Shown here in pieces: positions 2,266 to 54,806 of a stretch of 64,000 nucleotides of DNA. The position numbers were made by a program, and so were the translations under genes. The stretch comes from Thermoanaerobacterium sp. RBIITD (GTDB lineage: Bacteria > Bacillota > Thermoanaerobacteria > Thermoanaerobacterales > Thermoanaerobacteraceae). Within the stretch, counting starts at the first letter, position 1. Each line of letters begins with the position of its first letter. The DNA is taken from the NCBI RefSeq assembly GCF_900205865.1, contig NZ_LT906662.1, positions 248,001-312,000 on the forward strand. Reading direction: 5' to 3'. The notes beneath the pieces were generated by a model. The model was not told where the DNA came from. It saw only the letters and a list, made by a program, of their open reading frames with translations, and made no database searches.

Positions 2266-2337
2266 TCTAATACCCCCCAGGTTATTATTTTTTAATTATA
2301 TATTAACTATAAAATATTTTTCTATTAAAAGCAAATT

Positions 2338-4111: not shown

Positions 4112-4198
4112 ATTTGCACCCCGTAGATAAAGATATTAATCTTATTCGACAAAAATCATGAAATTCCTTCATAATTTTTACTTTTACATATATAGGCA

Positions 4199-4222
4199 TA
4201 AAAAAAGACCCTCTAAGGGTTT
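4199..4222 (-). terminator. Rho-independent terminator of the tRNA operon
   Basis: On the minus strand ACCCT-TAG-AGGGT is a perfect short hairpin followed by CTTTTTT. It starts immediately after the CCA end of the tRNA-Ile gene and ends the two-tRNA transcript. Confidence 0.8.
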
Positions 4223-4299
4223 TGGTGGGCTTAGATGGACTTTAACCATCGACCTCACGCTTATCAGGCGTACGCTCTTATCGCATGAGCTACAAACCT
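4223..4299 (-). tRNA. tRNA-Ile(GAT), probably decayed
   Basis: 77 bases with encoded CCA, a GAT anticodon in a CTGATAA loop, and intact D, anticodon and T stems, so the cloverleaf is recognisable. Three features are wrong for a working tRNA. The first acceptor pair is A-C rather than G-C. The D loop reads ATGCGATAA, so the conserved G18-G19 pair is lost (GA). The T loop reads TTAAAGT, with A in place of invariant C56. G19 and C56 normally pair in the elbow, so both partners of that contact have changed. It may be a tRNA pseudogene still co-transcribed with tRNA-Ala. Confidence 0.75.
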
Positions 4300-36786: not shown

Positions 36787-37825
36787 TTATGCTGCCTCCT
36801 TTACCCGACTTCAACTTTTCAACTTCATCGTATAAGCGATTTATCGTTGTCGAAAAGGATATTAACTCTGGACATCTTTCATCACAGCGGCCGCAACCGA
36901 CACACATGTTTTCCGTTTTAAAGCGAGCTTTATAATCATATACTTTATGAAGTGTACGGAATCTCATCCTTTCACCGGCAGTTTTTCTAAATACATGGCC
37001 ACCCGCCATCTCTGTAAAATCCTTGTGCATACAGCTTGCCTGCACTCTTCTTCTTTCGCCGACATTTACATTTTCACTGTAAATTAAATCAACTGTATTA
37101 AAACAGCTACATGTTATGCAAGCAGCAGTACAAGCACCGCAGCTTATACAGCGGGAATTAAAGCTTTCCCACATGTCAAGATCATATACTTTTTTAAGTA
37201 GATCTGTGTTATCTATTTCTGGAACATGGACAACCTTCGGATTTGATTTTACGAATTCAGGCTTAAAATCTATTTCTTTCTTATCTTTAAATATGTCAAT
37301 AAATTCATCATCTTTAACTTCAACCATTACATTATCATTATTAAATCTTATCGCTAGACTATAGTTATCTGTTTTATTGGAGTTCATGGAAACGCAGAAG
37401 CAGGTATCCCAGCCATCTTTACATTCCATCAAAACGAATTTTACTTTTTCACGGAATCTTTTGTAATAAATATCTTCTGCACCACCATTTTGGAGGAAAA
37501 TCGTATCAAGTCTTCTTATGCCATTTATATCACAAGCTCTTACAAATAATAGTATTTTTTTATCAAATACTTTGCTTTCTCTGTACTCATCCTCTGTGAA
37601 ATAAAACAAAGCTTGTGTTATTGGATATATGACTTCTTTTGGTGAAGAATCGGATTTTTCATCGTATACAATATCGCTCAAAGATTTTATCTCATCATAT
37701 CTTATAAGATCTGTGTCAGAATACCGGCCACGATTTTCAAAACGTTTCGGTGCATAAATTTTATAATCTTTCTTCAGTAGATTTAAAATATCGTCAAAAT
37801 CTTTATTCTCAATTAGATATCCCAA
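36779..37825 (-). CDS. asrA: Anaerobic sulfite reductase subunit A
   Basis: 348 residues. TTG start with AAAGGAGGAGAG upstream. Two ferredoxin-type cluster motifs are visible: CISCGACTAACITCSC with one extra Cys near residue 230, and CVGCGRCDERCPE near 312. AsrA is the electron-transfer subunit of the dissimilatory-type, NADH-dependent sulfite reductase known from Salmonella and clostridia. First gene of asrABC, same strand and tight spacing. Confidence 0.95.
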   Translation of the reverse strand: MGYLIENKDFDDILNLLKKDYKIYAPKRFENRGRYSDTDLIRYDEIKSLSDIVYDEKSDSSPKEVIYPITQALFYFTEDEYRESKVFDKKILLFVRACDINGIRRLDTIFLQNGGAEDIYYKRFREKVKFVLMECKDGWDTCFCVSMNSNKTDNYSLAIRFNNDNVMVEVKDDEFIDIFKDKKEIDFKPEFVKSNPKVVHVPEIDNTDLLKKVYDLDMWESFNSRCISCGACTAACITCSCFNTVDLIYSENVNVGERRRVQASCMHKDFTEMAGGHVFRKTAGERMRFRTLHKVYDYKARFKTENMCVGCGRCDERCPELISFSTTINRLYDEVEKLKSGKGGSINE

Positions 37826-37918
37826 GTTCTCTCCTCCTTTGAAAGTTAAAAATTATTTAGCAGATTTTGATATAATTATAACATCAAATATTTAACGAGT
37901 ATAATAATAAAAATTTAT

Positions 37919-38295
37919 AGAAACCATAACAGGAACTTATATGTTAAAGATGCTAATCCAGAAGTAAAGCAATTAATTGAGCAAATAGAAAAGGAAATTG
38001 GAGTAGTTCCTCCAACAATACGTGTAATGGCAAATAAGCCAGAATATCTTAAACTCTTGAAAAATCACGTGTTGTAATGTGAACTGACAAGATAGACGGG
38101 AAAACAAAGCTTTTTGTTGCATTGACCGTATCAATTTTAAATATTTGTAAAATGTGCATTACTACCTACACCAAAAAATTAAAAGAAGAGGGCGTAACCG
38201 ATGAAGAAATTATTGAGATTTTATCAATCATCGACCTAGTCGGTGGTTTAAACCACTTCAACAATGGACTTATGATAAAACCACCTCAAAAATAA
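37919..38295 (+). pseudogene. Broken carboxymuconolactone decarboxylase / AhpD-like gene
   Basis: On the plus strand one frame (37919-38077) reads DANPEVKQLIEQIEKEIG then VVPPTIRVMANKPEYLKLLKNH and hits TAA. The family then continues in another frame from about 38090: LFVALTVSILNICKMCITTYTK, KKLKEEGVTDEEIIEILSIIDLVGGLNHFNNGL, ending at TAA 38293-38295. The CxxC (CKMC) is kept but the final His of the CxxCxxxH pattern is Tyr. No start codon or ribosome-binding site precedes the first part. Frameshift plus stop mark it as a pseudogene. Confidence 0.75.
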
Positions 38296-38627
38296 AATTT
38301 TAAAATGAGAATACATCTGCTGCTATTTAATGAAAATGCAAAAATTTAAATGATGATATAAAAATAAGGCTTTCCTTTTATTACAGTAAAAAGAAAGCCT
38401 TATTAGGTTCTCCACATCTGCATACACATCCGGCCTATTTTTAACATGTAAACTATGTACTTCTTTAACAAGGGTGCTTATAGATTCATAATCATTTTAC
38501 ATTGCTTTTCTTGTTTTTATATTCATTAGATTTTCAGCCCCTTTTTAAAGTCAAATAAAGAAGCAACCTTAATTTACTTCATTATCCTTTTTGTGTTGCA
38601 TTAATTTAAAAATATTTATCATTAATA
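38296..38627. other. Intergenic stretch with one terminator-like hairpin
   Basis: 332 bases without a gene I can support. The hairpin at 38364-38405 is described separately. Short fragments of coding-like sequence occur but none exceeds about 25 residues. Confidence 0.5.
38364..38405. repeat. Terminator-like hairpin, near copy of the one at 31345-31390
   Basis: AATAAGGCTTTC and GAAAGCCTTATT form a perfect 12-bp stem around an AT-rich arm (CTTTTATTACAGTAAAAA). It shares GGCTTTC, CTTTTA and GTAAAAAGAAAGC with the ferritin terminator. No intact gene ends here. Confidence 0.6.
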
Positions 38628-39085
38628 TTACGCAATAAGGCTTTTCAGTTCACGCAAAACAGTGGTTTCTCTGCCCAGTATTTCAGTTGAAAAATCCCCC
38701 ATTTTAAGATAAAATTTCTCTACAGATTTACCATTGCTTTTTAATAACTTTTCAAGACTCTTAGGATATCCTACACATATAAATGTCAATGTTATTTCTT
38801 CAATCTTTATGTCATTTACTTCTTTTTCGTCATTCCCATCCACATTCATTATTGATTTATGTAAAAATGCATAACTTAGTCCTTTAAAATACTCATCTAT
38901 AGATACATAATCATTTGATGCTTTATATTCTATTACATTATATTTTTTAAATATCTTTGCTATCTTTTTATCTATATTGATTTCATCCGATGTTTTTTAT
39001 GCATCTATCCTTAATAATAAATATACCTCTTTATTTCCTTGAATTTTGGTAGTTAATAAAGTTAATCTCAAGTACATATGTCAAT
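38628..39085 (-). pseudogene. Decayed PD-(D/E)XK-like nuclease gene
   Basis: The minus-strand frame is open from 38996 to 38628 and encodes KKIAKIFKKYNVIEYKAS, NDYVSIDEYFKGLSYAFLHKS, then IEEITLTFICVGYPKSLEKLL. The VIEYK and DYVSIDEYFK segments match a clostridial PD-(D/E)XK-like family often seen near mobile DNA. A TAA at 38997-38999 interrupts the same frame, which continues upstream (GNKEVYLLLRIDA) before dissolving into other frames. The only ATG (38847-38849) lies after the catalytic part, so no useful protein is expected. Confidence 0.55.
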
Positions 39086-39228
39086 ATAATGTTTTTCTTC
39101 ATTATCTCTTAAATAAAATACTGTATGATATTTGTCTATTTCTATATAATTAAAATAAATATATTTATTGTTATCGTTTCTTTATTTTCCTGTGTTCCAA
39201 ATACTTTCTGTAATATGAAATCATCATC

Positions 39229-41355
39229 TTATTTCCTCTTCTTTTTATTTTTGTTTTCCTCAGCTTTTCTAAAAGCATCAGCAATTGCAGTATTGCTATT
39301 TTTATAATTTCTATCTATTTTACTGTAGCTGTCCTTTTTTGCAACATTACCGCTTTTCTTAGACCTTTTTATATTGTTTTCTAAAAATGCCTCTTCATAT
39401 TTAAGTATTTCAGGTAATGCCTTTTTATTTCTGAATTCATTTAATTCCATATACCTGTAATTATTCGCATCTTTAATTTTTATAACTTTAGACTTAATCA
39501 ACATAAATTCTTTTATCGTATCTATGTTTTCTATGTCTTGCCCATTTAAATATTTATCTGAAAAATTCCTCTTGTAAATATTTATGTATTTGTCCAAATC
39601 ATCTTCATTAAAATAATCAAAACTAAAATAATCATATTTTTTATTTAAGTCTTCTATGTATAATTTTACTTTCTCAACTTTAACCCTACCAAAACCATAA
39701 GGCTTTGCTAATCCGATATTTTGGTAACAGCCATCATTTAATTTTAATGCCCAACCTAAAAGTCCCAATTCTTCTTCATCTAAATTTGTAAAATATATCC
39801 TACCTTTAAATATAGTGCCTTCTTTTAAAGGGTGTATTGTAAATTTCATTTCTTCAGCTTTGGCATCTTCTAATTCTGGTTTCTCTATATAATCCTTTAA
39901 CCAATACTGTTTAAAACCTCTTATTTTAAAATCATCCTCATAAATCTTAAGCAACTTTTTATCTGCGTCTTTATCCTGTTTTAAGTATAAATTATAGCTT
40001 GTAGGTTTCGGTTCTGCAAGTATTATAGTCATTACGCTATCTTCATCTAATACTGGCTCTCCAACAACTTCTGCATCTTCAAAACTGACACGGGATTTAT
40101 AATTAAAATTCTTATCTTCTCCATCATCTCTTTTTAACTTTTTACTAAAGCCAAATATCCCATCTGTATAACTTACATCTTTTGTATCTTTATACAATTG
40201 TGACACACCATCTAAAACTGTTTTTGTATAATAAATTCTTAAATAAGGTGTAAATCCAAAATGTAATCTATCGGTATTTATATAGAATACCGGCTTTCTT
40301 TCATTTTTTTTAGGTAAAGCAAAAAACTCCTTGCCTTTAAAAATTTCCTCTTTATTATTCATCTTTTTGGTTCGTATCAGGTCATCTTTATAAGCTTCTA
40401 TATCTTCTCTCAGAATTTTTATATTTCCGCTTTTATCATCTGCTTCAGGAACTATATAATGGCTTAATTTGCCTAATATAAAACCTCCAGACAATAAATA
40501 TCCATTTTGGCTGAGTATGCCTTTTCTATTTATATCAATTATTCTTCCAGTTTTACTGTCAAACTCAAATGATATCCCTGTTTGATATGGTTTATATATT
40601 CTTTCATTTGATAAATCCTTTAAAATGCTTTTTAACTTACTATTCAACTCTCTTTCTTTGCTCTTGTTATCCTTATTCTTTGCTATTTCTCTTTTAATCT
40701 CTTTCAATTCAACTTCACAGTTTAACAAATCTTTTTTATACATAAAATTGATTCCATCAATATTTTTATTTGACGCAATCCTTCTTAATATTATCTCATC
40801 AATCCTGAAATACGGTACACCTACTTTTAATTCTTTAGCTGGTTCGATATAATATTTATTTGCTCTATTAACTATATATCCTGCTTTAACATTCTTTGCT
40901 ATTCTTCTAGTTACATCAACACCTAAAATACTTTTATATCTTGCACTTAAAGAGTTATTACCTGCAATGTCTCTATATAAAAACCTCGAATTTTCAATTT
41001 CACTGTTTTCATAATTACCCTCTTTATCCTTCTCTCCAATAATATTGCTAAAACTTAAAATCTGACAATTAGTCCTTGCTATACCTCTAATTGTATTTCC
41101 AGGAATAGCATATTTCCCGTTTGTATTGATAAAAAAATGTACCTGCTTATCTTTAACACCTGTAGATACAATTATAGGCGTCTCTGCTTTTAAAGTATAT
41201 TCTACATATCCGCTCAATCCTTTAAAATCATTGTGCGCTGGAAGTTCCTCTATTTTTTTATATTTCACTACTGCTTTCTTTGGAAAACTAACAAAATTGT
41301 ACGGTGCTACTGCATATTGACCTAATTTCTTTTTTTCTATTATCTCCGGCTTCAT
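39229..41355 (-). CDS. Large type III CRISPR RAMP protein (TIGR03986-like)
   Basis: 708 residues, last gene of the type III operon. The N-terminal RAMP/Cas7-like fold has VEYTLKAETPIIVSTG, then YAIPGNTIRGIARTN (the RAMP IPG-S-KG-R motif as IPGNTIRGIAR) and SRFLYRDIAG. A charged helical insertion is at about 215-260. The C-terminal half repeats a RAMP part ending in YQNIGLAKPYGFGRVKVEKVKL, the glycine-rich loop. The last 40 residues are basic and low in complexity (ENKNKKKRK), possibly for RNA binding. The length and motifs fit the TIGR03986 family of type III-D-like systems. ATG follows AGGAGTGATAAT. Confidence 0.8.
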   Translation of the reverse strand: MKPEIIEKKKLGQYAVAPYNFVSFPKKAVVKYKKIEELPAHNDFKGLSGYVEYTLKAETPIIVSTGVKDKQVHFFINTNGKYAIPGNTIRGIARTNCQILSFSNIIGEKDKEGNYENSEIENSRFLYRDIAGNNSLSARYKSILGVDVTRRIAKNVKAGYIVNRANKYYIEPAKELKVGVPYFRIDEIILRRIASNKNIDGINFMYKKDLLNCEVELKEIKREIAKNKDNKSKERELNSKLKSILKDLSNERIYKPYQTGISFEFDSKTGRIIDINRKGILSQNGYLLSGGFILGKLSHYIVPEADDKSGNIKILREDIEAYKDDLIRTKKMNNKEEIFKGKEFFALPKKNERKPVFYINTDRLHFGFTPYLRIYYTKTVLDGVSQLYKDTKDVSYTDGIFGFSKKLKRDDGEDKNFNYKSRVSFEDAEVVGEPVLDEDSVMTIILAEPKPTSYNLYLKQDKDADKKLLKIYEDDFKIRGFKQYWLKDYIEKPELEDAKAEEMKFTIHPLKEGTIFKGRIYFTNLDEEELGLLGWALKLNDGCYQNIGLAKPYGFGRVKVEKVKLYIEDLNKKYDYFSFDYFNEDDLDKYINIYKRNFSDKYLNGQDIENIDTIKEFMLIKSKVIKIKDANNYRYMELNEFRNKKALPEILKYEEAFLENNIKRSKKSGNVAKKDSYSKIDRNYKNSNTAIADAFRKAEENKNKKKRK

Positions 41356-41359
41356 ATTA

Positions 41360-41827
41360 TCACTCCTTAAAAATTAGTTCACAAGGCTTTACATAACTTA
41401 TATAAGCCTGATTATCATCATCATAACTTATATATTTCCTTACCCTCAGTTTTTCAGCATATACTTCTTTCTCACCATATCTGGGATATAAAATAAATAC
41501 AGACTCTATATATTCGTTTTTTCCCACAGAATCTTCTTCAATAAATATTGTTCCTTTTAATTTATCATCATCAGTAAATAATCTTATCTCTGCACTGCTA
41601 TTAAAAAATCTCGCCTCAATAAGGTTGTCATAATCTATATCTACATTTGAGATTTTATCAGATAATACTGAATCGTAGTTGTAAATTATACAATCTATCA
41701 ATCCTAAATTTATCAATGTCTCTTTATTCAAATTATTTTTTAATGTAAATTCTCCATCAAAATCAAATTTAAAAATTTCTTTCAGACTGTTTATATCTAA
41801 TTTTTTTAACCGATAACTATTATTCAT
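41360..41827 (-). CDS. csx19: Csx19-like (TIGR03984-like) type III-D protein
   Basis: 155 residues. LIEARFFNSSAEIRLFTDDD near 80-100 resembles the conserved core of Csx19/TIGR03984 proteins, which occur only in type III-D loci and whose role is not well known. The position between the double RAMP and the large RAMP gene also fits. The ATG overlaps the preceding gene by 8 bases with GGAGGGTAAAG as ribosome-binding site. The family call is from short similarity plus order. Confidence 0.6.
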   Translation of the reverse strand: MNNSYRLKKLDINSLKEIFKFDFDGEFTLKNNLNKETLINLGLIDCIIYNYDSVLSDKISNVDIDYDNLIEARFFNSSAEIRLFTDDDKLKGTIFIEEDSVGKNEYIESVFILYPRYGEKEVYAEKLRVRKYISYDDDNQAYISYVKPCELIFKE

Positions 41828-43100
41828 CTTTACCCTCCTGTCTCATGAAGTTTTTTGCGGCTGCAACATAATAATTTAATTTTTTTTCATCGGAAATTGA
41901 CTTTTTATCAAAATCTATGTTTATAACTTTATCGCCAATCATTATTTCCATTGTACGTGCTTTAAATCTACCTCTCCCTATATTGCTACCGCCGCCAAGT
42001 GGTAGATTTTCCGTCCCCATATCTCTTAAAGCAAGTGTTATTAAGCCAATTGCATAATTATCAAATACATCATCATTTTTCTTTCTGTAAAGAACTTTAA
42101 ACTGGGTCTCCCCTTTCACAGGAATATCATTCGTTAAGGCAGTACTTCTTGTACCACCAGCAAATCTATCAATTTTTATTCTAATATAATGTACTTTGTC
42201 TTCAAAATTTCTATTGTCTATTATAGATTCATTTACAAAAACTCTGCTTAACATATGCTTTTCTTCCTCATCCTGCGTATCACCAAACATTTCTTTTGCT
42301 TTATCTAAACTATCAAAATGTTTTGCAATTTTTTCAACTCTTGACCTTAAAACACCCTTAAAACTGCTGCCAGGTACTATATATTCTGAACCTGATTTAA
42401 TGTTTCTCCTGTCAGCATCTCCTGTTTTAAAAGTTTTAGGAGCTCCTATTAATAATGGCGTAGTAAACTCCCCATTTATTATAAATGTAATATATGCTTT
42501 GTCTTCAACAGTATTGAAAATATTATCTTTGATTTCCTTCATGCCTGAAAAATCGTTTTTTAGATATTTTGTTAAATTATCTATTTCCCCCAAATCAAAA
42601 ACTAAATTTTTAACGCTTATTACTTCAAAAATCCCTAAACCGTTACTTTTATTGCTTCCAAAGCGAATTATACCTTTATTTAGAGCCCTTAAACATTTAT
42701 AAATCATTTCATCTAAACTTTCATGTTTTTCTTTACTATGTATTTCAAAAGTTAAACTAAATTTTAATCCCTTACATAAATATTTCTCGTCAATTTTGTG
42801 CTTATCTTCTTGGCTTCCTGCTACATCATCAATAGCGACTCTATTTCTTCTCTCAAACTTAGTTATTTCTGCAAACGCATCTTTTACATAAATAGAGCTT
42901 TCAATATTCTGCTCACCAAAAAGCTTTATATAATCTTCACCAATTGATTTTAGGTAAGCCCTAAAAGAACCCACAATACTTGTTGCAGGAAGATATGCCT
43001 TCCCTTCTTCTTTATCAATCAAAATATCCCTGTCATCATCTCCAATATAGAGAGGAGATTTGCTAATTATTTCTGCTGTTATAAAACTAACCTCTCTCAC
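41820..43100 (-). CDS. Double RAMP (Cas7-Cas7 fusion) type III protein
   Basis: 426 residues with two RAMP domains. The first (about 1-175) has SKSPLYIGDDDRDILID, then YLPATSIVGSFRAYL and FGSNKSNGLGIFEV. The second (about 200-405) has GEFTTPLLIGAPKTFKTGDADRRNI, YIVPGSSFKGVLRSRV and LPLGGGSNIGRGRFKA. Each carries Asp residues (DDDRD, GDAD) placed where Csm3 has its target-RNA cleaving Asp. Such subunits line the crRNA. GTG start with AAGGAGGATGACAA upstream, overlapping the csx10-like stop by 4 bases. Confidence 0.83.
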   Translation of the reverse strand: MREVSFITAEIISKSPLYIGDDDRDILIDKEEGKAYLPATSIVGSFRAYLKSIGEDYIKLFGEQNIESSIYVKDAFAEITKFERRNRVAIDDVAGSQEDKHKIDEKYLCKGLKFSLTFEIHSKEKHESLDEMIYKCLRALNKGIIRFGSNKSNGLGIFEVISVKNLVFDLGEIDNLTKYLKNDFSGMKEIKDNIFNTVEDKAYITFIINGEFTTPLLIGAPKTFKTGDADRRNIKSGSEYIVPGSSFKGVLRSRVEKIAKHFDSLDKAKEMFGDTQDEEEKHMLSRVFVNESIIDNRNFEDKVHYIRIKIDRFAGGTRSTALTNDIPVKGETQFKVLYRKKNDDVFDNYAIGLITLALRDMGTENLPLGGGSNIGRGRFKARTMEIMIGDKVINIDFDKKSISDEKKLNYYVAAAKNFMRQEGKDE

Positions 43101-44692
43101 TTGTCATCCTCCTTCCTAATCTGATATTGGCAAAGTCCTATTAAAACTTTTAAATTCATTTGATATACAAATTTTTCATCTACATCTGATTTGATTTTTC
43201 CAATCTCAATTCTCTTTACTTTAGCTTCACTATAAAATGAATCAACATTATTACTATTTACAACAAAATCATTTAAAAACTCTACAAAATCCCTATCTCT
43301 GTACTTTATTCTACTTAACTGCTTGTATGAAGAGTTTTTTGAAGCACTTCCTTTAGTCTTAATATTTTCTATAAATTCCTGATAATATTTAATTCCTTCA
43401 TAAGGTTCTTTATAAAGCATTTCAGTAAAAAGATCCTTATAATTGCCCCACTGACTTTGCCTTAACTCTTTTTGACCTTCTAAGTCATTATCTATATCCA
43501 AAACCTTTTCTGCTATTTTATCTTCAACCCTTTTCTTAAATATCATGGTAACCATATCTTTTAATTGTTTCTCGTCTTCAGGTCTAAGTCTTTCCAATAA
43601 TTCATGCAAATCGCTCTTAGTGTCATTTTCATCGCCATAACTCTTTAATTTAGAAATCTCTTCAATATCATCAAGCAATACAACTCTACCAAAACCATCT
43701 GCTTTTTTTTCTCCTATACCTCTGTCAACAAATTCTTTTAATACTTCTTCATTGATCTCTCCTTCAATCTTGTATTTAAATATGCTTCCTGCTTTTATTC
43801 CAACTATTTGAGGCGTGCGACAGTTCCATTTATTATTAAAATTAGTCAAAGGTTTAGTTTCAATTGAACTATCAATATAAACAACTTTTTTAAGATTCAA
43901 TTTTTCACGAATATATTCGGGTTCAATAAATGTTTTATACTCTCCCAATTCATTCCGATATATAATGTCCGACATTGCATAAAGATAAATATAATCTTCA
44001 AAATCGTATTTACCTCGAAACATCAGGTATTCTGGATTGTCATTCTCACTTTTCATATTTGTAATCTTGCACTTACCATAACCGCTCCCTTTTGAGCCCC
44101 CTATATATATAACAGCATCATTAAATAATTCTATAACTTCATCTACATATGCCTCATCTTCAACTTTTATAATGCCTTTAAACAACTGCCCCCTTTTTAT
44201 AGAGTCGTATCTAAAAAGGTTGTTTTTATTTCGCGATTTGTTTATATGAAGATTAGACTTTTTCTTAACTTTCACTATGTCATACTCACCATTATCATAT
44301 TTCGAAAATTCTGCAATACGTATCCTTTCAAATCCAGGGTCAAGTTTATTGTCAATACCAAGTTTGAGCTCCAAATACCTTTCAAATGACTTTATATCAT
44401 TTTTGGGTGCAAAATAACATTTTGGAAAAGGAATACTTCTTTCGTCATACTTATCTTTTACTGGATATGCATTTAAAAATTTAATCCCACCTTTTAACAA
44501 TTTTTCTTTATGGATTCCTTGATTTATATCTGATATACTATTTTTCTTTATGTATTCATATATGAAGGCTCCTCTAATAGCTGAACCGGTTATATATTCC
44601 ATCGACTCCTGTGAATCTATTTGAACATTTGTTTTTGCAAGCTTTATATCCTCTAATGCTTCTATATCATATGTTAGGTACTTTGCCATCAT
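43097..44692 (-). CDS. csx10: Csx10-like RAMP protein (Cas5-like subunit)
   Basis: 531 residues. N-terminal RAMP part: MEYITGSAIRGAFIYEYI near 30 and VIYIGGSKGSGYGKCKI near 200 (glycine-rich loop). A second RAMP-like part contains GIGEKKADGFGRVVLL near 340. The C-terminal 170 residues are helical and charged. Csx10 is the marker of type III-D systems and takes the Cas5 place at the crRNA 5' end. Overlaps the preceding RAMP by 26 bases with GGGGGTAAAGG as its ribosome-binding site. Confidence 0.72.
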   Translation of the reverse strand: MMAKYLTYDIEALEDIKLAKTNVQIDSQESMEYITGSAIRGAFIYEYIKKNSISDINQGIHKEKLLKGGIKFLNAYPVKDKYDERSIPFPKCYFAPKNDIKSFERYLELKLGIDNKLDPGFERIRIAEFSKYDNGEYDIVKVKKKSNLHINKSRNKNNLFRYDSIKRGQLFKGIIKVEDEAYVDEVIELFNDAVIYIGGSKGSGYGKCKITNMKSENDNPEYLMFRGKYDFEDYIYLYAMSDIIYRNELGEYKTFIEPEYIREKLNLKKVVYIDSSIETKPLTNFNNKWNCRTPQIVGIKAGSIFKYKIEGEINEEVLKEFVDRGIGEKKADGFGRVVLLDDIEEISKLKSYGDENDTKSDLHELLERLRPEDEKQLKDMVTMIFKKRVEDKIAEKVLDIDNDLEGQKELRQSQWGNYKDLFTEMLYKEPYEGIKYYQEFIENIKTKGSASKNSSYKQLSRIKYRDRDFVEFLNDFVVNSNNVDSFYSEAKVKRIEIGKIKSDVDEKFVYQMNLKVLIGLCQYQIRKEDDK

Positions 44693-45347
44693 CCTTTACC
44701 CCCTTTAAAAAGCTATCTACATAGATTTGAGTCATATCCTTATACTCACCATCTTGAAAAACCTTAAAGTTACATTCAACTTCTCCTTTGCCCCTTGTCC
44801 TCATAGTACCAATATGCCTTAACATTTTCGCTGTGATAGCTATAATCCCCAGCTCTTCTTCAGATAATTCTCTGCCAGAATAAATATCAACCACAAATAT
44901 AAGCCCTTTCTTAATCACTCTAAATTGCCTTAAAGAGCCTTTTTTATAAGAACCATCGTCATCGAGACTTGTAAAACTTCTTACATCTGTTAAAACATCT
45001 TTTACTTCATCGCAATCAAAAAGTCTTTCTTTTACTCCATATGCCAAAACACCCCTTATATTTTCTGCAATTCTGCAATCGGAGAATTTGAGGTTCTTCC
45101 ATGAATCTACTCCTCCATTTTCCTTCCCAAGAAGAGATACTAATAAATGCTTATACTTCTCTTCCCCTAACAACTTTACCACTTCTGACATTTCTTTTCT
45201 AAAATTGCCTTTAAATGTCTTGCCCTTCATATAAGGCAGCCCATACTCATCATAAACTATTTCTAAATCAACTGTTCCCGGTATTGAATAGCCACTTCCA
45301 AATATTGTTTCTGTCAATAGTTTCATTTCAATTCTATACTTTCCCAT
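44667..45347 (-). CDS. Csm3-like RAMP (Cas7) protein
   Basis: 226 residues, one RAMP domain. KLLTETIFGSGYSIPGTVDLEIVYDEY is followed by LPYMKGKTFKGNFRKEM, so Asp27 sits where Csm3 has the Asp that cuts target RNA. The C-terminal loop is IGTMRTRGKGEVECNFKVF. Likely the backbone or cutting subunit. It overlaps the end of cas10 by 14 bases. Confidence 0.82.
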   Translation of the reverse strand: MGKYRIEMKLLTETIFGSGYSIPGTVDLEIVYDEYGLPYMKGKTFKGNFRKEMSEVVKLLGEEKYKHLLVSLLGKENGGVDSWKNLKFSDCRIAENIRGVLAYGVKERLFDCDEVKDVLTDVRSFTSLDDDGSYKKGSLRQFRVIKKGLIFVVDIYSGRELSEEELGIIAITAKMLRHIGTMRTRGKGEVECNFKVFQDGEYKDMTQIYVDSFLKGVKDDGKVPNI

Positions 45348-46866
45348 TTTTATCCCCTTTCAAATCATTTATAAAAAGATCCATTATCTCAATAGCATCA
45401 TAATACATGCATTTATCATTATAAAAGCAAAAATCTCCAGTTGTCCCTTCTAATCTCGAAAAACAATTTTCTAAATTATTTACTTTTAAAAATCGTTCAG
45501 TTTCTTTTTCTCCTTCTTTGAGGACATCTCTTAACTGTTTGAGCTTACTTCTTGGAATCTTTTTCTCGTAAATTTCTTTATCTGAGATGTTTTTATATGC
45601 CTCTTTAAAATTTTTATAGCTTGTCCATACTTCCTTTTCATTATTATTCATATACAAAGGCCTCATATATAGTTCTTTCCCATCAAGTGTTTTATAGAAT
45701 TTCTCCCTTATATCGGCTATTGTACCTGATAACTCCCCTTGTTCAATATGCCAATCTATAAGTGAAAAGTCCTTATCTTCATTATAATAATCCTTGATAA
45801 TTTTTCTTTTGGCATTGCTGCATAAATCCTCAGCTAACTGATAAGCTTTAGCAAAAGGATATGATATCCTTACAATCGCAACACCTGCACAAGCATTTAA
45901 TTTAATTTTTTTACCTTTATATAATTCTATCTCCTTATCATTTAAGTACTCCAAAAAAACTCTTGCTGATTCTATACCAATTTTTCCATTTGTAACGTAT
46001 GTAACATCATCGCCAGCTACTATTATTGGTATAACAGGAAATTTGTCTTCATCTATCTTTGTATCATCTTTTAGATTATCACGATTTTTTTCTATTACTG
46101 ATGTCATCTCTTTAAAAGCATTTTCGAATATTTCTTTTACATTTTTACTAAATTTTTTCAGAGCCACTAGGTATTCTTCATTAGTTTTTTTATAATTTCC
46201 GTCTTCATATTTAAAACATGTCTTAAGTTCATTAAATTTCTCTCCCATGCGATTCCCGTCAATATGTACAACTGCTAAATAGTTTTTATCACCTTTGCTT
46301 AAATCATCAAATTCCCTTATGCTTTTGATATTTGATGGAAGCAATTTATCAAACTTTTTACTTCTTTTATCTTTAGCGCTATCTATTTTTACCTTTATTT
46401 CTTTACTTATATATCTATCCTCTTCATCCTTATATTCAGCAGGTAATCCAGTAGCTCTGCATACCGTCTCAATTCCAAATGAATTTTGGATGCCACTATA
46501 CATCCTCCTATTCTTCTTTACAGCAAGTTTATGATAAGATTCATCGATTTTATCAATTACTCTATCTTCTTCCACATCATATTCCTGTATAACGAAAAAC
46601 ACCTCTATGCCAGGATAACTTTTAAGTATCTCTTTACTTATTTTACTTACAAACTCCTTTGCTTTATCTACAGCTTCAAAATTGTAAAGACTTCCGCCAC
46701 CACCATTATAAACAACATTTTTGCTGTAATCTTCTTCTATTTCCATTGGTAATTCCTCTACTATTTCTTCGATAATAAAGGAAGCACCTATGTTTTCTTT
46801 TAACCTATTGCTGGAAAATATATAATCTTGTTTTCTTGATATTTCCCATAAGACCAACGCATTCAT
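45334..46866 (-). CDS. cas10: Cas10, HD-less, type III large subunit
   Basis: 510 residues, short for Cas10. It opens directly with the first palm domain (LVLWEISRKQDYIFSSNRLKENIGASFI, then NGGGGSLYNF), so no N-terminal HD nuclease exists. The second palm has AVVHIDGNRMGEKF near 197 and IPIIVAGDDVTYVTNGK near 290: the cyclase motif is AGDD in place of GGDD, with both Asp kept. KKIKLNACAGVAIVRISYPFAKAYQLAEDLCSNAK follows, the usual Cas10 region. It should convert ATP to cyclic oligoadenylate when target RNA is bound, feeding the CARF proteins encoded directly upstream. ATG follows GGAGGAAATTAA. Confidence 0.88.
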   Translation of the reverse strand: MNALVLWEISRKQDYIFSSNRLKENIGASFIIEEIVEELPMEIEEDYSKNVVYNGGGGSLYNFEAVDKAKEFVSKISKEILKSYPGIEVFFVIQEYDVEEDRVIDKIDESYHKLAVKKNRRMYSGIQNSFGIETVCRATGLPAEYKDEEDRYISKEIKVKIDSAKDKRSKKFDKLLPSNIKSIREFDDLSKGDKNYLAVVHIDGNRMGEKFNELKTCFKYEDGNYKKTNEEYLVALKKFSKNVKEIFENAFKEMTSVIEKNRDNLKDDTKIDEDKFPVIPIIVAGDDVTYVTNGKIGIESARVFLEYLNDKEIELYKGKKIKLNACAGVAIVRISYPFAKAYQLAEDLCSNAKRKIIKDYYNEDKDFSLIDWHIEQGELSGTIADIREKFYKTLDGKELYMRPLYMNNNEKEVWTSYKNFKEAYKNISDKEIYEKKIPRSKLKQLRDVLKEGEKETERFLKVNNLENCFSRLEGTTGDFCFYNDKCMYYDAIEIMDLFINDLKGDKNGKV

Positions 46867-47808
46867 TTAATTTCCTCCTTCAATTTTAAACTTCTCAATT
46901 ATTTTTTCAACAAAAGATTCATTAAGATTTATAAAAGAAGCCCTTTCATCCATTTCATATTCATAATCACTTTTTATATCTTTTTTAAGTCTCATTACTG
47001 TTTCTCCATTACAATCGGATTGATATATTATCTCACTTTTACTGCCGCCCAATTTATCTGAAATATCCTTTATTTTAAATAGCTCCATCTTATACTCGGA
47101 TTTGTTTTTATTTTCATATTTAGATTTAAAACACATTATAAGTCGCCCATCTAAAATATAAACTTCATCTACATTTATAGGTAGTCCATTTTTAGAAGAG
47201 ATAAACTCAGGATTCTTTATATACTTAACTTTTCCATTCAAAATCTCTTCCTGAGACTTTGAAGATCTACTATAGCCGTGTATTCTTGTGATATCTTCCA
47301 CAGACAAATCAAATCTATTTACAATTTCTTTAATAGGAAATTTTTTATCTTTATCCTTGTAAGAATACTCAAATATTTGTTTGTCATCATCATCTACATA
47401 TGAAATTGTAACAGCCAAAATATCTTCTTTTAAATTCGCAAATCTTTCTGTAAATAAAGCTGACATTACTTTAGTACCACTTGAATAATCTAAGATTACT
47501 TTTCTGGCATAACCTCCATAGCCAGCATCTTTTTTAATTGAGTCTATCACATCCTTAATACATTTTTGAATTTTTTTAGTATTACTTTTATCACATTCTA
47601 CAAATTCTACGCTTATTTTAGGTATTTTTTCGACAACTACTTTTGATAAGTTTTCTGCGATTTTCTTAGAACTTATATTGTTCCTAGTAGGTTTCGTATA
47701 GACAAGCTTAATCTTCGTATTCTTATCAGCATTTTTTAGTATTGTGATAAATGCCGGCAAAGGGTTTGTTCCTATGAGAGAAATAAGATAATCAGCATTG
47801 CATTCCAC
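46867..47808 (-). CDS. CARF-domain protein with Card1-like C-terminal nuclease fold (first of two)
   Basis: 313 residues. GTG start with GGGAGGGG upstream, overlapping the previous gene by 17 bases. The CARF domain (1-150) has the ligand loop LIGTNPLPAFITIL and VILDYSSGTKVMSALF, where the family has YTGGTKxM. A linker with DLSVEDITRIHGYSR precedes a C-terminal part with INVDEVYILDGRLIMCFKSK and ELFKIKDISDKLGGSKSEIIY. The latter matches the end of the DUF1887/Card1 PD-(D/E)XK domain; Asp and Lys can be placed, but the usual Glu (or Ser) before Cys-Lys is not. It probably binds cyclic oligoadenylate made by Cas10. Confidence 0.75.
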   Translation of the reverse strand: MECNADYLISLIGTNPLPAFITILKNADKNTKIKLVYTKPTRNNISSKKIAENLSKVVVEKIPKISVEFVECDKSNTKKIQKCIKDVIDSIKKDAGYGGYARKVILDYSSGTKVMSALFTERFANLKEDILAVTISYVDDDDKQIFEYSYKDKDKKFPIKEIVNRFDLSVEDITRIHGYSRSSKSQEEILNGKVKYIKNPEFISSKNGLPINVDEVYILDGRLIMCFKSKYENKNKSEYKMELFKIKDISDKLGGSKSEIIYQSDCNGETVMRLKKDIKSDYEYEMDERASFINLNESFVEKIIEKFKIEGGN

Positions 47809-49075
47809 TTCTAACCCCTCCCATAATCCATTCTTTTAATTTAGCTTTTAAATTGTGAAAATCTTGTGCCCCTAATATAAGTGTATTTTTAGTAGTAAAA
47901 TCGTCCCATATGTTTTTGTATTCGTCCTCTATTTGTTTAACATTCCAGCATAAATTAATAAAGCATATTCCTGATTCGTCACCTGCTAAATACTTCGCCC
48001 TTTGTTTTATTTCATATAACTTTTTCTTGGCAACTTCAGTATCAGATTCTGAAGTCACTGAAATAGCAAATATTTTATATTTTCTATATGCCACTAAATC
48101 AACTTCAAATTCATCTTTATTACTATCATCATACTTTTTAGTGATATTTGATAGTGCATCATCTATAATGGCTTCACCCTTAAGTTCAACTAATATATTT
48201 AAAATATATTCCTCTAGCCACTCTGTCTTTTTAAAATAATTAAACATGTCTTTGCTGCTGTCAAATCCTAAAGAATTAATGTCTATATAATCTTTCATTT
48301 CAGAACAATTGCGAAATAATCCATTTAATTCATTTTTAAATTCTTCACTTGCTTTATTGTATTTTTTAGAAAGGCAGTATAAAGATTTTATAAAAATTAT
48401 TACTTTGTTGTATTCATCATCGTTTTTCATATTTGCTACTAAATCACCCAGTTTATTTGATAACTCATTCATTTTAGATTTGTATTTTATTTTATCAAAT
48501 CTAATCATATCAGCATCTAAATATGTACATACTATGTCCATTACACTTAGATCGCAGCATCCATTTAGCTCAGATAACTTTTTTGAAAAGTGATTAAAAT
48601 CCTGCTTATTTTTTCTTTTGTATTCACAGTATATAAACTCTCTTTCAGGATCAATATAAGTCAAATTCACATCTGTATCTCGCTTTTTATAATCATAATT
48701 TTTGACTACATCATACGCTGCTGATGACATTACCTTTGTACCACCATTGTAATTTAGCTCCAAAAGATTTATATTATTGCCTTCCTTTAAGGTTTCATCA
48801 AGTTTTTTTACCAAAGCATCTTTTATAGATCCCATATAGGATTTATCTCTAATCACAATTTTCTCAACCTTATTTGTAATGTTTTTAGTAACTATTAATT
48901 TCCTAAATCTTTCATATGGATACTCTGCTGTCTCATCCGTACATATGCAAATTATTCTCCCATCATTTTTTAGCCTCGTCACAGCAGAAATTATATTTGG
49001 AAATGGATTTGTCCCCATTATCACATATAACACATCTGCTTTATTTTCTAAAAAATTATCCTGCTCAACAGACAT
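47792..49075 (-). CDS. CARF-domain protein with Card1/Can2-like nuclease domain (second of two)
   Basis: 427 residues from the ATG at 49073-49075, preferred because GGAAGGTGAG lies before it; in-frame starts up to 49117 are possible. The CARF domain has YVIMGTNPFPNIISAV and LLELNYNGGTKVMSSAAYDV, the family signature. The C-terminal DUF1887-type part has EWLEEYILNILVEL, then DEFEVDLVAYRKYKIFAISVTSESD and EIKQRAKYLAGDESGICF. Where Card1 has Glu-x-Lys this has Ser-Val-Thr, so nuclease activity is uncertain; an ISCTT-type variant exists in related proteins. First gene of the type III operon as transcribed. Confidence 0.8.
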   Translation of the reverse strand: MSVEQDNFLENKADVLYVIMGTNPFPNIISAVTRLKNDGRIICICTDETAEYPYERFRKLIVTKNITNKVEKIVIRDKSYMGSIKDALVKKLDETLKEGNNINLLELNYNGGTKVMSSAAYDVVKNYDYKKRDTDVNLTYIDPEREFIYCEYKRKNKQDFNHFSKKLSELNGCCDLSVMDIVCTYLDADMIRFDKIKYKSKMNELSNKLGDLVANMKNDDEYNKVIIFIKSLYCLSKKYNKASEEFKNELNGLFRNCSEMKDYIDINSLGFDSSKDMFNYFKKTEWLEEYILNILVELKGEAIIDDALSNITKKYDDSNKDEFEVDLVAYRKYKIFAISVTSESDTEVAKKKLYEIKQRAKYLAGDESGICFINLCWNVKQIEDEYKNIWDDFTTKNTLILGAQDFHNLKAKLKEWIMGGVRSGMQC

Positions 49076-49610
49076 ATGATACTCACCTTCCATTTCATAT
49101 TCTTTGATGACCAGCAATAAACTTTAAAAATATATGAGCTAAAACCATAACCCCTTCAAGACAATTAAAAACTTTAAAATAAAAAAACAATATCATAGAA
49201 GTGGTTCACTTAGAAGATGTTGGTATAAGCCTTCTAAAAAAATTTTGTAAATAAGGCATTATTATACCTTCATTTTATCACTTTATTTTTCTAAAAACAA
49301 CATAAACATTTGAAATATTTTGACACATAGAAAAAAATAAAAAGATAAAAAATCCTGTTTACTAAAATTGCCTTTGAATCTTCACAGACATTCCTTCTCT
49401 TTCATTCCCTCAATATTCCTTTCGAATTCTACCATTTTCGTTTGAGCACATCAAAAGTATGTCTTCAGCATCAACATAATTACTTTCTTAAAAACATATT
49501 ACATAAATATTTATATACCACTATTTTTTAGCTAAAGTTTCCAAAGCAACTGGTGATATTCGATGCATGCTATACTTCCATTGCATGTATTCAAATTCAG
49601 AAAGAAGATA
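49076..49610. other. AT-rich upstream region of the type III operon
   Basis: No gene I can support. A TATAAT on the minus strand (about 49262-49267, AAGGTATAATAATG) could be the -10 box of the operon, but no good -35 was seen. Pieces of coding-like sequence in several frames (for example NYVDAEDILLMCSNENGRI on the minus strand near 49440-49490) suggest further gene decay. No CRISPR repeats are present. Confidence 0.45.
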
Positions 49611-50019
49611 ATGGCTATATATAAAAGCAATAGGCCTAAAAAAGAGAAGGCTCAGCTTATAAATGAAGAGTTTAAAAAAACTTATAAACACTATAAATAA
49701 AGTCTTTAATATATTGAATAAGCTGCATGATAGGAAACAAATTTTCACTAGTGATCTAAAGAGAATATTAGATATGTTGGTAAATAGAACAGGTTATCTT
49801 TATAGTTAGTATGGGGAATACCATAAGATAGATGAGGATGTGACCATTATAATTAAAACTCTATATGACCCGGCAATAAAAGAAGAAGGCATTAAAGAGG
49901 GCATAAAGAAAGGCCAAATTGAAGGCAGAATAAAGAAAGCTCAAGAAAATATACTCAATGCCATAAATGTTAAGTTCGATGCATTTTCTTATGATCTTAA
50001 AAATAAAATATTAAAATAA
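49611..50019 (+). pseudogene. Broken Rpn/PD-(D/E)XK transposase-like gene (C-terminal part)
   Basis: On the plus strand an ATG after AGAAAGAAGATA opens RPKKEKAQLINEEFKKTYKHYK, stops, and continues in another frame with VFNILNKLHDRKQIFTSDLKRILDM and, after an in-frame TAG, KEEGIKEGIKKGQIEGR and KAQENILNAINVKFDAF, ending at 50017-50019. The tail with repeated EGIKxG is typical of Rpn family recombination-promoting nucleases. At least one frameshift and one stop. Confidence 0.6.
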
Positions 50020-50159
50020 AGTTGAAAGTAAACTGAATTAAATTTTGATTACAGTTATTAAAAGCAATTCAATAGATTACCTCACTGATGATTAAAATCA
50101 ATCAGTGGAAAGACATACCCTTTTCACATACTACTCATTGTGTGCCCCAGAAAATGTCC

Positions 50160-53100
50160 TCACTGGTCTTTATTGTACTGCTCTTTCGTATACTCGCTCA
50201 AAATTTTGTATGCTTTCCCAAAATAAGGTATCTTCTCCCATAATTCATGATTTCCTATAAAGACAACCCTATACTTTGCCCTTGTCACAGCCACATTGAG
50301 TATATTGGGTTTGCTTCCAGCCCATCGAGCAGCTGCTTCACTTCTTCCATCACAGCCGAGTATAATAATAGCTTCATTTTCTTCCCTTCCTTGAAATGTA
50401 TGAATGGTTCCACAAGACCTTTCCAACCATTGATTAATATCATCATCATTATATTGCTTATGGTTTTCTTTAATAGATTCCCTCAGGGTTTTCTTCATAT
50501 TATATATGACAGATTTAAATGGACTTATAATAAAAAGATTAGGAAGTTTACCGTCTAATTTCATCGCATCTAATACAATTTGAACAACCATTTCTCCTTG
50601 TTCTTTAACATAGTGATCCTTGTTTCCATTTTCTTTACCTCCTATATTTAGCCATTCAGATTTATTAAATATAAGTTGTATATTTTTATCTGGTTCTTTT
50701 GTTTCCTTAAGCATTCTACCATTATATGCAATCTCATTAGAAATAGAAAACATAGGATCTATACAGCGTCTATGTACCAACAATGGACAGCCAGCCCACA
50801 CATTATTATCTCCGCAAACCAAATACCCCCCATATCTATTTGCTTTATCCGCAAAATTCTGAACCGATACAGTCTTAGAAATGTATGCTTTATCTATATT
50901 TAATTCCGCTGCAAATTTCTCGTAAAATATATCAGGTACTGTAACAATAGGTTCTATTTGCATAGGGTCACCAATAACAATGGATTTACATGTCCGCCAC
51001 ATTGCTCCTAAAGCAGATTGAGGAGTGGCCTGTCCGGCTTCGTCGATAATAAGCGTACCAAGTTCTTCTTTACCTATATACTTTAAAAGCGTAGATACCG
51101 ACGCAAATGTAGTGGAAATTACAGGCACAATAAAAAATAACGTATTGATCAAATGAGCATATGCATCTCTTCTGTTCTGTATAGAAAATTTATTCCACCA
51201 CATATTGACCAAACAATTTATATTTTGCTTTACTGATTTTGAGTTTAAGATAAACGCCTTATGTAGTCTTAATGCATAATAGAATAATTCTTCTCTGAGT
51301 TTATCATATTCTTTATCAGTCCATGGGCAAGCAAGTTGAGAATTTATATTTTTCTCTATATCCACCCAAAATTCTTCACCAGCAAAATTAGAACCAAACT
51401 GTTTCTTAATCTCTGCAATATCTTCATTTCTTTTTGCCAGTTTTTCTTCCTTATCTTTTAAATAACTCTTATCTGTTTCATATTTCCTTCTCAGATTATG
51501 TAGATCACGTAACAAATTACTTATTTTCATATCCATATCTGTACGTTTGATTATAGCTGAATTCAATTCCCCTCTCAGCTTGGTAAGCTGAAAAACAATA
51601 GGGTCATTTTTAAAAAAGAAAGAGAATACTCTTTTGAAAAGTGGAAGCCGGGTTTTGAGCAACCTATAGTTTTCTGTTAACATTTTTATTTGGTCAACTA
51701 TAATTTTTTGTTCCTCTACCTTTAAACTGTATATATTCTCTTGTTCTTTTAAATCTCTTTGTTCCTTATCAATTTTACTTCTAATATTACTGCATTCTTT
51801 TTTAAGCTCATAATATTCGTTTGTTGCATCAACTGCATCCTTAATTTTTTCTCTGTAATCCATAACCTTTGAATACTTATCCATGAATTCTTTTTTTGCG
51901 CTGCACCAATCAGGTTTACTATCTTTATAATAATTTTTCAGATTTATATCATTATTAAACCAAATAGCATCTATAAATTTATTAATATTTGATTTTTTAC
52001 CAAGTCGTGCAGATATTAACCCCCAGCATTTTTTATTACTCAGTAATTTATTTGCAATTCCAGAGAAATAGATCTCTTCATTACAGTCAATATCAAAATG
52101 TGATGTATTGCTACTTTTGACGCTTTCAGCAGTTGGTAATTCCATAGAGATATTCTCAACAGCTGTATTATTATTAGACGCAATTAAAATTCCATATTTA
52201 GTAAGCAGTTTATCAGGTTTATAATAATATCTTAAAAATTCATTCTCTGGCATTTTAAATTCTTGCTGTTTAAAAGCGCAATCTGGATTTTCATATTTGC
52301 ACATGAGCAACGCTCTTTTGACCACATTTTCAGCTACTATCTCTTTTATAAGGGTTGTTTTCCCTGTTCCGGGTGGTCCATTTATTGAGAATATCCACCC
52401 CATATTTTTATCTTCTGATATGGCCAAATTTATGGCTATTTGCTGCATAAAACTTGGGCTATATTCAGATGGCCATTTTCCAAGCGGAAATTTATCAGGT
52501 AATAGCCACTTTTCCATCTCTTCCTCATTTTTGCAAATCTCTATTCTATTCTTGTCCTCTTTTAATGCTCCTATATAATCAACAATTTTATCATTATTCT
52601 CAATCTCATGCTCTTTTAAACTATTTATTATCTCCATAATATCTGTAAGATAGAAACTGGATACCATATTTTGAACCGTATCCAACTCAGTCTCATCTTG
52701 TTTGAAATTATTATCATTTGACAAACCGCTATCTACATTGTATTCAACTGAGTTATTATTGTTTGTCTTAATATATTCTTTATTTATAGATACGTAAAAC
52801 TCATTATCTTCCATTTTAATTTTTACTGGAATCTTGTTCATGACAAATTTAAAAATCTTCATCAAATCTTCATACGACATTATTTTGTCTTTTAGTTGTA
52901 ACTCATCTAATATAGAACTATCTATTTCTTTATTGAATTCCTTTATTTCTGATTCATCAAGTGCTACATTTAAACTTTTACTTTCTATTACCTTAGCAGT
53001 TGCCCAGATCAAATTAACCACGCGAAATGATTTTTCAATGTATTTTCCTTCATAAGTTAATTGAAACACACAGACACAGGACAATGATGTATCTTTATCA

Positions 53101-53351
53101 ATTAGATCATCTCTTTCACCAATGGCATTGAACATATCCTCAATTAAATCCTGCAGAGTAATCTTACCAAGATATATGTTATATACAAATGTATCATTTG
53201 CATCATTAGTCTTGGCTACATATGGTATGATTTTCCTATTTTTATCTGCTATCACCCTATCGCCTTTTATCTCAGGCCAAAATGGCATAAATAACTCCAA
53301 TTTATACCAATAATCTAATATATTTTTAATCTCATCTAATTTATGATCCAT
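50160..53351 (-). CDS. UPF1-like SF1 helicase (AAA_11/AAA_12)
   Basis: 1063 residues. The first 300 have no recognised motif. Walker A INGPPGTGKTTLIKEIVAEN is near 324, a helical, coiled-coil insertion lies near 480-700, Walker B LGTLIIDEAGQATPQSAL near 769, then SIVIGDPMQIEPIV, GTIHTFQGREENEAIIIL and PNILNVAVTRAKYRVV near the C-terminus. All SF1B helicase motifs are present. It has no nuclease domain. Genes of this type often occur alone in defence islands, and its position 1.1 kb upstream of the type III operon supports that guess, not a proof. Ribosome-binding site weak (AAGG close to ATG). Confidence 0.8.
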   Translation of the reverse strand: MDHKLDEIKNILDYWYKLELFMPFWPEIKGDRVIADKNRKIIPYVAKTNDANDTFVYNIYLGKITLQDLIEDMFNAIGERDDLIDKDTSLSCVCVFQLTYEGKYIEKSFRVVNLIWATAKVIESKSLNVALDESEIKEFNKEIDSSILDELQLKDKIMSYEDLMKIFKFVMNKIPVKIKMEDNEFYVSINKEYIKTNNNNSVEYNVDSGLSNDNNFKQDETELDTVQNMVSSFYLTDIMEIINSLKEHEIENNDKIVDYIGALKEDKNRIEICKNEEEMEKWLLPDKFPLGKWPSEYSPSFMQQIAINLAISEDKNMGWIFSINGPPGTGKTTLIKEIVAENVVKRALLMCKYENPDCAFKQQEFKMPENEFLRYYYKPDKLLTKYGILIASNNNTAVENISMELPTAESVKSSNTSHFDIDCNEEIYFSGIANKLLSNKKCWGLISARLGKKSNINKFIDAIWFNNDINLKNYYKDSKPDWCSAKKEFMDKYSKVMDYREKIKDAVDATNEYYELKKECSNIRSKIDKEQRDLKEQENIYSLKVEEQKIIVDQIKMLTENYRLLKTRLPLFKRVFSFFFKNDPIVFQLTKLRGELNSAIIKRTDMDMKISNLLRDLHNLRRKYETDKSYLKDKEEKLAKRNEDIAEIKKQFGSNFAGEEFWVDIEKNINSQLACPWTDKEYDKLREELFYYALRLHKAFILNSKSVKQNINCLVNMWWNKFSIQNRRDAYAHLINTLFFIVPVISTTFASVSTLLKYIGKEELGTLIIDEAGQATPQSALGAMWRTCKSIVIGDPMQIEPIVTVPDIFYEKFAAELNIDKAYISKTVSVQNFADKANRYGGYLVCGDNNVWAGCPLLVHRRCIDPMFSISNEIAYNGRMLKETKEPDKNIQLIFNKSEWLNIGGKENGNKDHYVKEQGEMVVQIVLDAMKLDGKLPNLFIISPFKSVIYNMKKTLRESIKENHKQYNDDDINQWLERSCGTIHTFQGREENEAIIILGCDGRSEAAARWAGSKPNILNVAVTRAKYRVVFIGNHELWEKIPYFGKAYKILSEYTKEQYNKDQ

Positions 53352-53544
53352 ACCTTGTTAACCCCTTCTCTTCTCGAATGCTGGTTTACCTCTGAGCCAA
53401 ATTTTCCTACTTTCATGACATGGGCTCTGCATAATTTAACATATAAAACCCCTAATATATATCAAATTGTTTTTTTAAATTTTACCATAATAAACATATC
53501 GATAAAATTTAAAAAAAAATATGATATTATTTCGTCTTTAATCA

Positions 53545-54618: not shown

Positions 54619-54692
54619 ATGCATCACCCTTTTTTAAAAGTTCGTGTATAAAAATATAATTTACTTAACATAATAATAAGAGGAGTGATTTT

Positions 54693-54806
54693 ATGCTTAA
54701 TAATAAATTTTATAAAGGCTTAATTAATGGATTGTTTTGTAGCTCCATAATATGGATTTTTATTATTATATTAATCAAGGCTATCAATAAGCACCATCTT
54801 TTTTAA
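54693..54806 (+). CDS. Small membrane peptide, 37 residues
   Basis: On the plus strand, AGGAGTGATTTT precedes ATG at 54693 by a good spacing; the frame runs 37 codons to TAA at 54804-54806. The peptide begins MLNNKFYKGLINGLF and continues with a hydrophobic segment (CSSIIWIFIIILI), then KAINKHHLF. One membrane helix, positively charged ends. The last 23 bases overlap the end of the convergent sugar transferase gene. No known family, but ribosome-binding site, length and a clean hydrophobic helix are those of a real small gene. Confidence 0.5.
   Translation: MLNNKFYKGLINGLFCSSIIWIFIIILIKAINKHHLF

Follow-up and report, generated by a model that had tools for sequence, protein, structure and literature searches.

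An eight-gene CRISPR effector operon in Thermoanaerobacterium sp. RBIITD opens with two CARF genes and has neither an array nor cas6 alongside, which raises the question of where its guide RNAs come from and what a second CARF protein would contribute. The reading favoured here, with a probability of about 0.7, is that of a horizontally acquired, intact III-D1-like module that would use crRNAs supplied in trans and that carries a Can2-type nuclease, CARFa, together with a dead partner, CARFb. The analysed window is a 64-kb stretch, bases 248001-312000 of the complete chromosome (3,402,993 bases, 3.40 Mb), and the operon lies on its minus strand at 39229-49075. Each of the eight ORFs overlaps or touches its neighbour (overlaps of 17, 14, 26, 4 and 8 nt, one abutting pair and one 4-nt gap), and a promoter scan returned 86 sites against 72 expected, which is not above useful background. 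An initial annotation, made from the sequence alone, had described an eight-gene effector operon; ORFs and HMM scans confirm that it is real and that the gene list was correct (Table 1).

Table 1. Features of the operon and its island (window coordinates), and CRISPR loci elsewhere (chromosome coordinates)
Feature	Position	Strand	Evidence or content
CARFa, CARF + PD-(D/E)xK nuclease, Can2 type (predicted), 427 aa	47792..49075	-	PADLOC Csx1 1e-50, CARF4_PDDEXK 2e-46; PDB Can2 8q3y 7e-8
CARFb, CARF + shortened Can2 fold, predicted pseudo-nuclease, 313 aa	46867..47808	-	PADLOC CARF4_PDDEXK 3e-20, residues 4-189
Cas10, HD-less, cyclase motif AGDD	45334..46866	-	PADLOC Cas10d 2e-143; PF22335 palm2; PDB 8s9t_C 3.5e-30
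Cas7 (Csm3-like)	44667..45347	-	PADLOC Cas7_IIId 5e-74
Csx10 (Cas5 of III-D), with C-terminal extension	43097..44692	-	PADLOC Cas5_IIId 3e-67; TIGR02674 2e-18, under curated cut-off
Double Cas7 (Cas7-2x), two candidate RNase sites D23/D25, D228/D230	41820..43100	-	PADLOC Cas7_IIId 1e-75; PDB 8s9t_D 1e-17
Csx19	41360..41827	-	TIGR03984 6e-10, above cut-off; PADLOC Csx19 3e-37
TIGR03986 RAMP (Cas7 with insertion)	39229..41355	-	TIGR03986 1e-102, above NCBIfam cut-off; PADLOC Cas7_IIId 6e-236
Species-specific island, operon + SF1 helicase gene	38979..53417	.	Whole-genome BLAST of window 36800-56000, 20 family genomes
Array	668464-687722		288 spacers by repeat matching, ~290 repeats; adjoins I-B locus cas6-cas1-cas4-cas3
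Array	1258409-1258572		2 spacers (3 repeats)
Array	1889519-1894416		70 spacers
Array	2725823-2729257		45 spacers
Array	2741537-2742099		8 spacers
I-B locus	687946-695709		With cas6 + cas1
Second I-B locus	1252630-1265392		With cas6, joined to III-A genes
III-B module	2729508-2736575
Second III-D operon	2742259-2751106		Fused Cas7-Cas5

The III-D-like assignment of that annotation is also borne out, as HMM scans that included the TIGR03986, TIGR03984 and Csx10 models found a Cas10 with cyclase palm domains, the csx10 signature, and Csx19 together with a TIGR03986 RAMP. Both CARF proteins belong to the CARF4 class by HMM (Csx1/CARF_PDDEXK, 7e-23 and 1e-50). By its profiles, the operon is classed as type III-D, unfused and III-D1-like. 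It shares the order Cas10, Cas7, Csx10, Cas7-2x, Csx19 and Cas7-insertion with the III-D1/III-Dv systems (Synechocystis III-Dv, PDB 8s9t-x; Saccharolobus III-D, PDB 8bmw), and resembles them further in its HD-less Cas10, the catalytic Asp of its Cas7 sites and the CARF effector gene upstream. In contrast, Synechocystis III-Dv fuses Cas7-Cas5-Cas11, whereas the subunits encoded in the window are unfused, and the Synechocystis operon adjoins cas6, adaptation genes and an array, none of which stands beside the operon described here. The core system is an ordinary type III-D of a known kind.

How common the arrangement is can be judged from a survey of 84,980 species genomes, which yielded 71 III-D loci in Cyanobacteria, Chloroflexota, Bacillota and others. 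The gene order CARF-Cas10-Cas7-Csx10-Cas7x2-...-TIGR03986 recurs in nearly all of them, and an array is present in the examined flank of 22 of the 71, or of 13 of the 37 loci that span at least 19 kb (within ~10 kb). Both the CARF-first order and the absence of a nearby array are ordinary for III-D. The proposal that the order CARF-CARF-Cas10 has a special meaning, with the receptors made ahead of the effector, is not supported, since CARF before Cas10 is the usual order across the 71 loci.

The effector core appears to be intact. Cas10 begins straight at the palm domain, without an HD domain, which is present in Cas10 of only 3% of III-D loci (PMC11229360). Its residues D203, D286 and D287 are kept, and are conserved in 70/70, 70/70 and 69/70 III-D Cas10 homologues, respectively; the first position of the AGDD cyclase motif is variable among III-D. 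In the Csm3-like Cas7, D27 aligns to D26 of the III-Dv Cas7-Cas5-Cas11 subunit and is an Asp in 68 of 69 homologues. D230 of Cas7-2x is invariant (64/64), and at the first site of this protein D25, which aligns with D33 of III-Dv, is Asp in 33 and Glu in 13 of the 64 homologues. Since the catalytic Asp residues of Cas10 and Cas7 are conserved, target cleavage and cyclic-oligoadenylate synthesis are both predicted to be intact.

The AF2 model of CARFa (pLDDT 89) aligns with VC1899 at a VIA-align Z of 29 and with T. brockii Can2 (TbCan2) at Z 27-28, and the active-site residues E288, E324, D326, S339, K350, E355 and R359 are all kept. Among 55 homologues E288, D326, E355 and R359 are conserved in 55/55, K350 in 54/55, S339 in 53/55 and E324 in 41/55. 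Both fold and residues place CARFa with Can2/Card1, that is, a CARF domain joined to a PD-(D/E)xK nuclease with catalytic Glu/Asp, and the E-x-D motif is the same as in the known enzymes (T. brockii Can2, PDB 8q3y-8q44; SthCan2, 7bdv). In T. brockii Can2 and CARFa alike, S-x-T replaces E-x-K. The idea that CARFa is dead because its E-x-K reads S-V-T was considered and rejected, as the serine is found in 53 of the 55 homologues and S-x-T is the family norm; it is also countered by T. brockii Can2, which reads S-L-T and was crystallised with DNA. CARFa is predicted to be a Can2-type nuclease with a retained active site that would be activated by cA4, the known Can2 ligand.

CARFb has the same fold in a shortened form, as its AF2 model (pLDDT 89) superposes on T. 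brockii Can2 with Z 25 over 280 residues, and sequence search linked it to no Can2 structure. An alignment that includes the L182 and L183 copies reveals that the helix bearing E288 is deleted and that E355 and R359 are lost. The position of E324 is taken by N, K or S across the three known copies, and equivalents of D326 and K350 are retained. CARFb has the Can2/Card1 fold but lacks the catalytic Glu in 3/3 copies, and its CARF motif region is kept (GTNPLP, DYxSxTK). From sequence and model, CARFb is a Can2-fold paralogue without catalytic glutamates, a predicted pseudo-nuclease.

This makes the pair noteworthy for a reason that was invisible to the author of the initial annotation: one of its members is a conserved dead nuclease. 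In the 71-locus survey the CARFa/CARFb pair occurs at three loci, those of the window, Clostridium aestuarii (L182) and Clostridiaceae UBA7994, and a search for CARFb homologues in plasmids, viral contigs and a 398-genome phylum sample found no more copies of the pair, the phylum sample giving one distant match (28% over the CARF part). In the tree the CARFa trio and the CARFb trio each form one clade (each 100/100), all six proteins join in a single group (98/95), and the branching order is the same in both clades, with the window copy next to UBA7994. The two proteins diverge at about equal rates, with identities of 39-45% among CARFb copies vs 41-46% among CARFa copies. The presence of the pair in three lineages, the congruent clades and the similar divergence indicate that CARFb is an old duplicate kept under selection and not the product of decay in a single strain. 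The core of Schnuerera sp. xch1 (L181) is 49-60% identical to the window operon and lacks the pair, from which it follows that CARFa/CARFb is not essential to the core. At 1238-4278 of the Schnuerera locus, two CARF-HEPN genes, one of them fused to Csx20, stand where the CARF pair would be; by sequence, the effector cassette appears to have been swapped in this genome and the core retained.

In Can2 enzymes two CARF subunits dimerise and hold one cA4 between them at the interface (PMC7969007). A single gene supplies both subunits of the Can2 homodimer, whereas CARFa has a co-conserved dead paralogue that is translated directly after it, the first 17 nt of CARFb lying within the end of CARFa. 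The closest parallel is Can1 of Thermus thermophilus (PDB 6sce), in which one of two unequal Can2-like halves likewise carries a functional nuclease and the other a nuclease-like domain devoid of active-site residues. Its origin has been proposed to lie in the duplication of a Can2-like gene, followed by active-site decay in one half. The two halves of Can1 are joined in one chain, which nicks supercoiled DNA; the nuclease-like half is needed for activity despite its missing active-site residues, the R206E/R249E variant being inactive (PMC6981274). The N-terminal half has been described as a duplicate without active-site residues (PMC6981274, PMC7969007). In fold comparison CARFb lies on Can1 residues 3-278 (Z 17) and CARFa on residues 291-631. 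The likeness to Can1, which is defined by two CARF domains, a nuclease and a nuclease-like domain in one chain, concerns the halves only, as CARFa and CARFb are encoded separately, with the active half ahead of the inactive one instead of behind it, and we infer their association. Since CARFb resembles the N-terminal and CARFa the C-terminal half of Can1, a two-gene Can1-like heterodimer is the simplest reading. The chances are put at about even that the two proteins assemble into an asymmetric heterodimer, equivalent to Can1 but encoded by two genes, in which a single composite cA4 site would be combined with a single functional nuclease site. The stricter form, an obligate asymmetric heterodimer with a two-CARF cA4 pocket and a single nuclease site, representing a natural two-gene intermediate between Can2 and Can1, is put at slightly below even. 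No report of a CARF heterodimer was found in the literature searched, and the pairing of a dead with a live CARF nuclease is the new part of this system, a variation on a known effector class.

The main rival, which we regard as a tentative possibility, is that CARFb acts as a separate regulator, a dead homodimer that would bind, buffer or slowly degrade cA4 and restrain a homodimeric CARFa. The conserved CARF motif region of CARFb fits such a role, type III systems often carry ring nucleases and sinks, and CARFa holds every residue needed for Can2 homodimer function. However, CARFb retains a whole-length Can2-fold C-terminal domain, which would be superfluous in a pure sink, the 8-17 nt gene overlap and the congruent trees suggest a fixed stoichiometry, and Can2-family CARFs reportedly have no ring nuclease activity (PMC12825302).

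The operon lies in an island that was absent, save for short scraps, from 19 other family genomes in whole-genome BLAST. Its flanks are conserved in the genus, though they are not adjacent to each other there, and these two observations together identify the operon and the helicase gene as a species-specific island. The SF1 helicase gene (50160-53351) lies upstream of the operon and shares its strand. Its 1063-aa product hits the MkoC profile of Mokosh at 1e-69, with only the C-terminal end of that profile unmatched, and this may be a second defence gene. The scraps at the island edges (49120-50080 and 38400-38980) are of transposon or repeat type, some of them repeated elsewhere in the genome and in the family, and the plus strand at 49120-50080 resembles pieces of an Rpn-type PD-(D/E)xK transposase. 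Between asrA and the island, an apparent broken carboxymuconolactone-decarboxylase-like gene lies on the plus strand at 37920-38295, and similar DNA is found in genus relatives. A species-specific location, transposon scraps at either end and the lack of an array would also fit a silent relic stranded by horizontal transfer, but this is unlikely given eight intact, coupled reading frames and the retention of all tested catalytic residues of Cas10, Cas7 and CARFa.

A tandem-array search found no CRISPR array in the 64-kb window, which also contains no relics of the genome's own repeats (the best match, with 10 mismatches in 30, is at chance level). Whole-genome Cas1/Cas6 searches place neither gene in the window, as the initial annotation had stated. 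Its description of the operon as array-less holds for the window only and fails genome-wide, as the search for arrays and cas6 that it called for revealed five arrays elsewhere in the chromosome, with ~413 spacers in total, and two cas6 genes. The arrays come from a reading of bases 1-2,852,000, with their spacers counted by repeat matching, and a pattern search of the whole chromosome found no further copies of their repeat families; the final 551 kb was covered by this pattern search for known families only, so that an array with another repeat is possible there. The cas6 genes (687946, 1264652) and one full-length cas1 (688985) were located by whole-genome searches. The repeats of all five arrays share one 3' end and yield the same 8-nt crRNA handle, ATTGAAAC; in the crRNA sense each repeat ends in GGAATTGAAAC, which gives the handle AUUGAAAC.

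Close relatives point in the same direction. In Schnuerera sp. xch1 and C. aestuarii, which hold the closest relatives of the window operon, arrays lie on both sides of it. The Schnuerera repeat, ATATCTAGACTACCTATAAGGAATTGAAAC, is nearly identical to that of the array at 2741537, ATATTTAGCCTACCTATTAGGAATTGAAAC, and the repeats of C. aestuarii end in GGATTGAAAC. Furthermore, cas1 is present elsewhere in the genome in 3/3 close relatives. The arrays, Cas6 and common handle in the chromosome, together with the arrays that flank the operons of relatives, make supply in trans the best reading, and crRNAs most likely reach the III-D complex in this way from the chromosome's own arrays. The suggestion that the operon uses arrays elsewhere is strongly supported by the five arrays, two Cas6, one full-length Cas1 and shared handle, and we infer that the complex would load their crRNAs. 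The other option offered, that the operon acts independently of CRISPR RNA in the manner of HRAMP and ARAMP, the array-less type III derivatives, is very improbable: neither array nor cas6 lies in the window, but the complex keeps its catalytic Asp residues and has the complete canonical set of III-D subunits in the order common to 71 loci, many with arrays, arrays flank the operon in close relatives, and five compatible, same-handle arrays and Cas6 are available in the same genome.

The arrays have further features of their own. In the large array at 668464-687722, spacer blocks are duplicated (for example, spacers 46-51 equal spacers 75-80), and most of its spacers, compared with phage records at megablast sensitivity, gave no phage matches. 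A region of the same chromosome, 1800921-1873435, is matched by sixteen distinct spacers, mostly with 1-4 mismatches, and four of the five arrays contribute to this set. This region resembles an integrated plasmid or conjugative element, with ParA-like, ParM-like, primase and helicase genes, and in the three arrays with GGCTAAA-type repeats 4/4 spacer matches to it are antisense to the ORF concerned. The mixed III-A / I-B locus contains a Cas1 fragment (58-aa frame, 1257684-1257818), which represents a broken adaptation module adjoining the 3-repeat array.

In the proposed mechanism, Cas6 of the I-B loci would process the chromosomal arrays and the III-D complex would load the resulting crRNAs in trans. 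Once the complex has paired with a target transcript, its Cas7 subunits would cut this RNA and the HD-less Cas10 would make a cyclic oligoadenylate, probably cA4, which in turn would activate CARFa; an asymmetric CARFa-CARFb heterodimer would favour nicking over double-strand cutting. The genome is a clean example of a chromosome in which several CRISPR types share one crRNA handle and a III-D effector has no array of its own. If the heterodimer reading is true, a living two-gene stage would allow the path from Can2 duplication to Can1 to be tested, and would reveal how a retained dead partner lets type III systems tune the DNA damage that they cause, nicking versus cutting.
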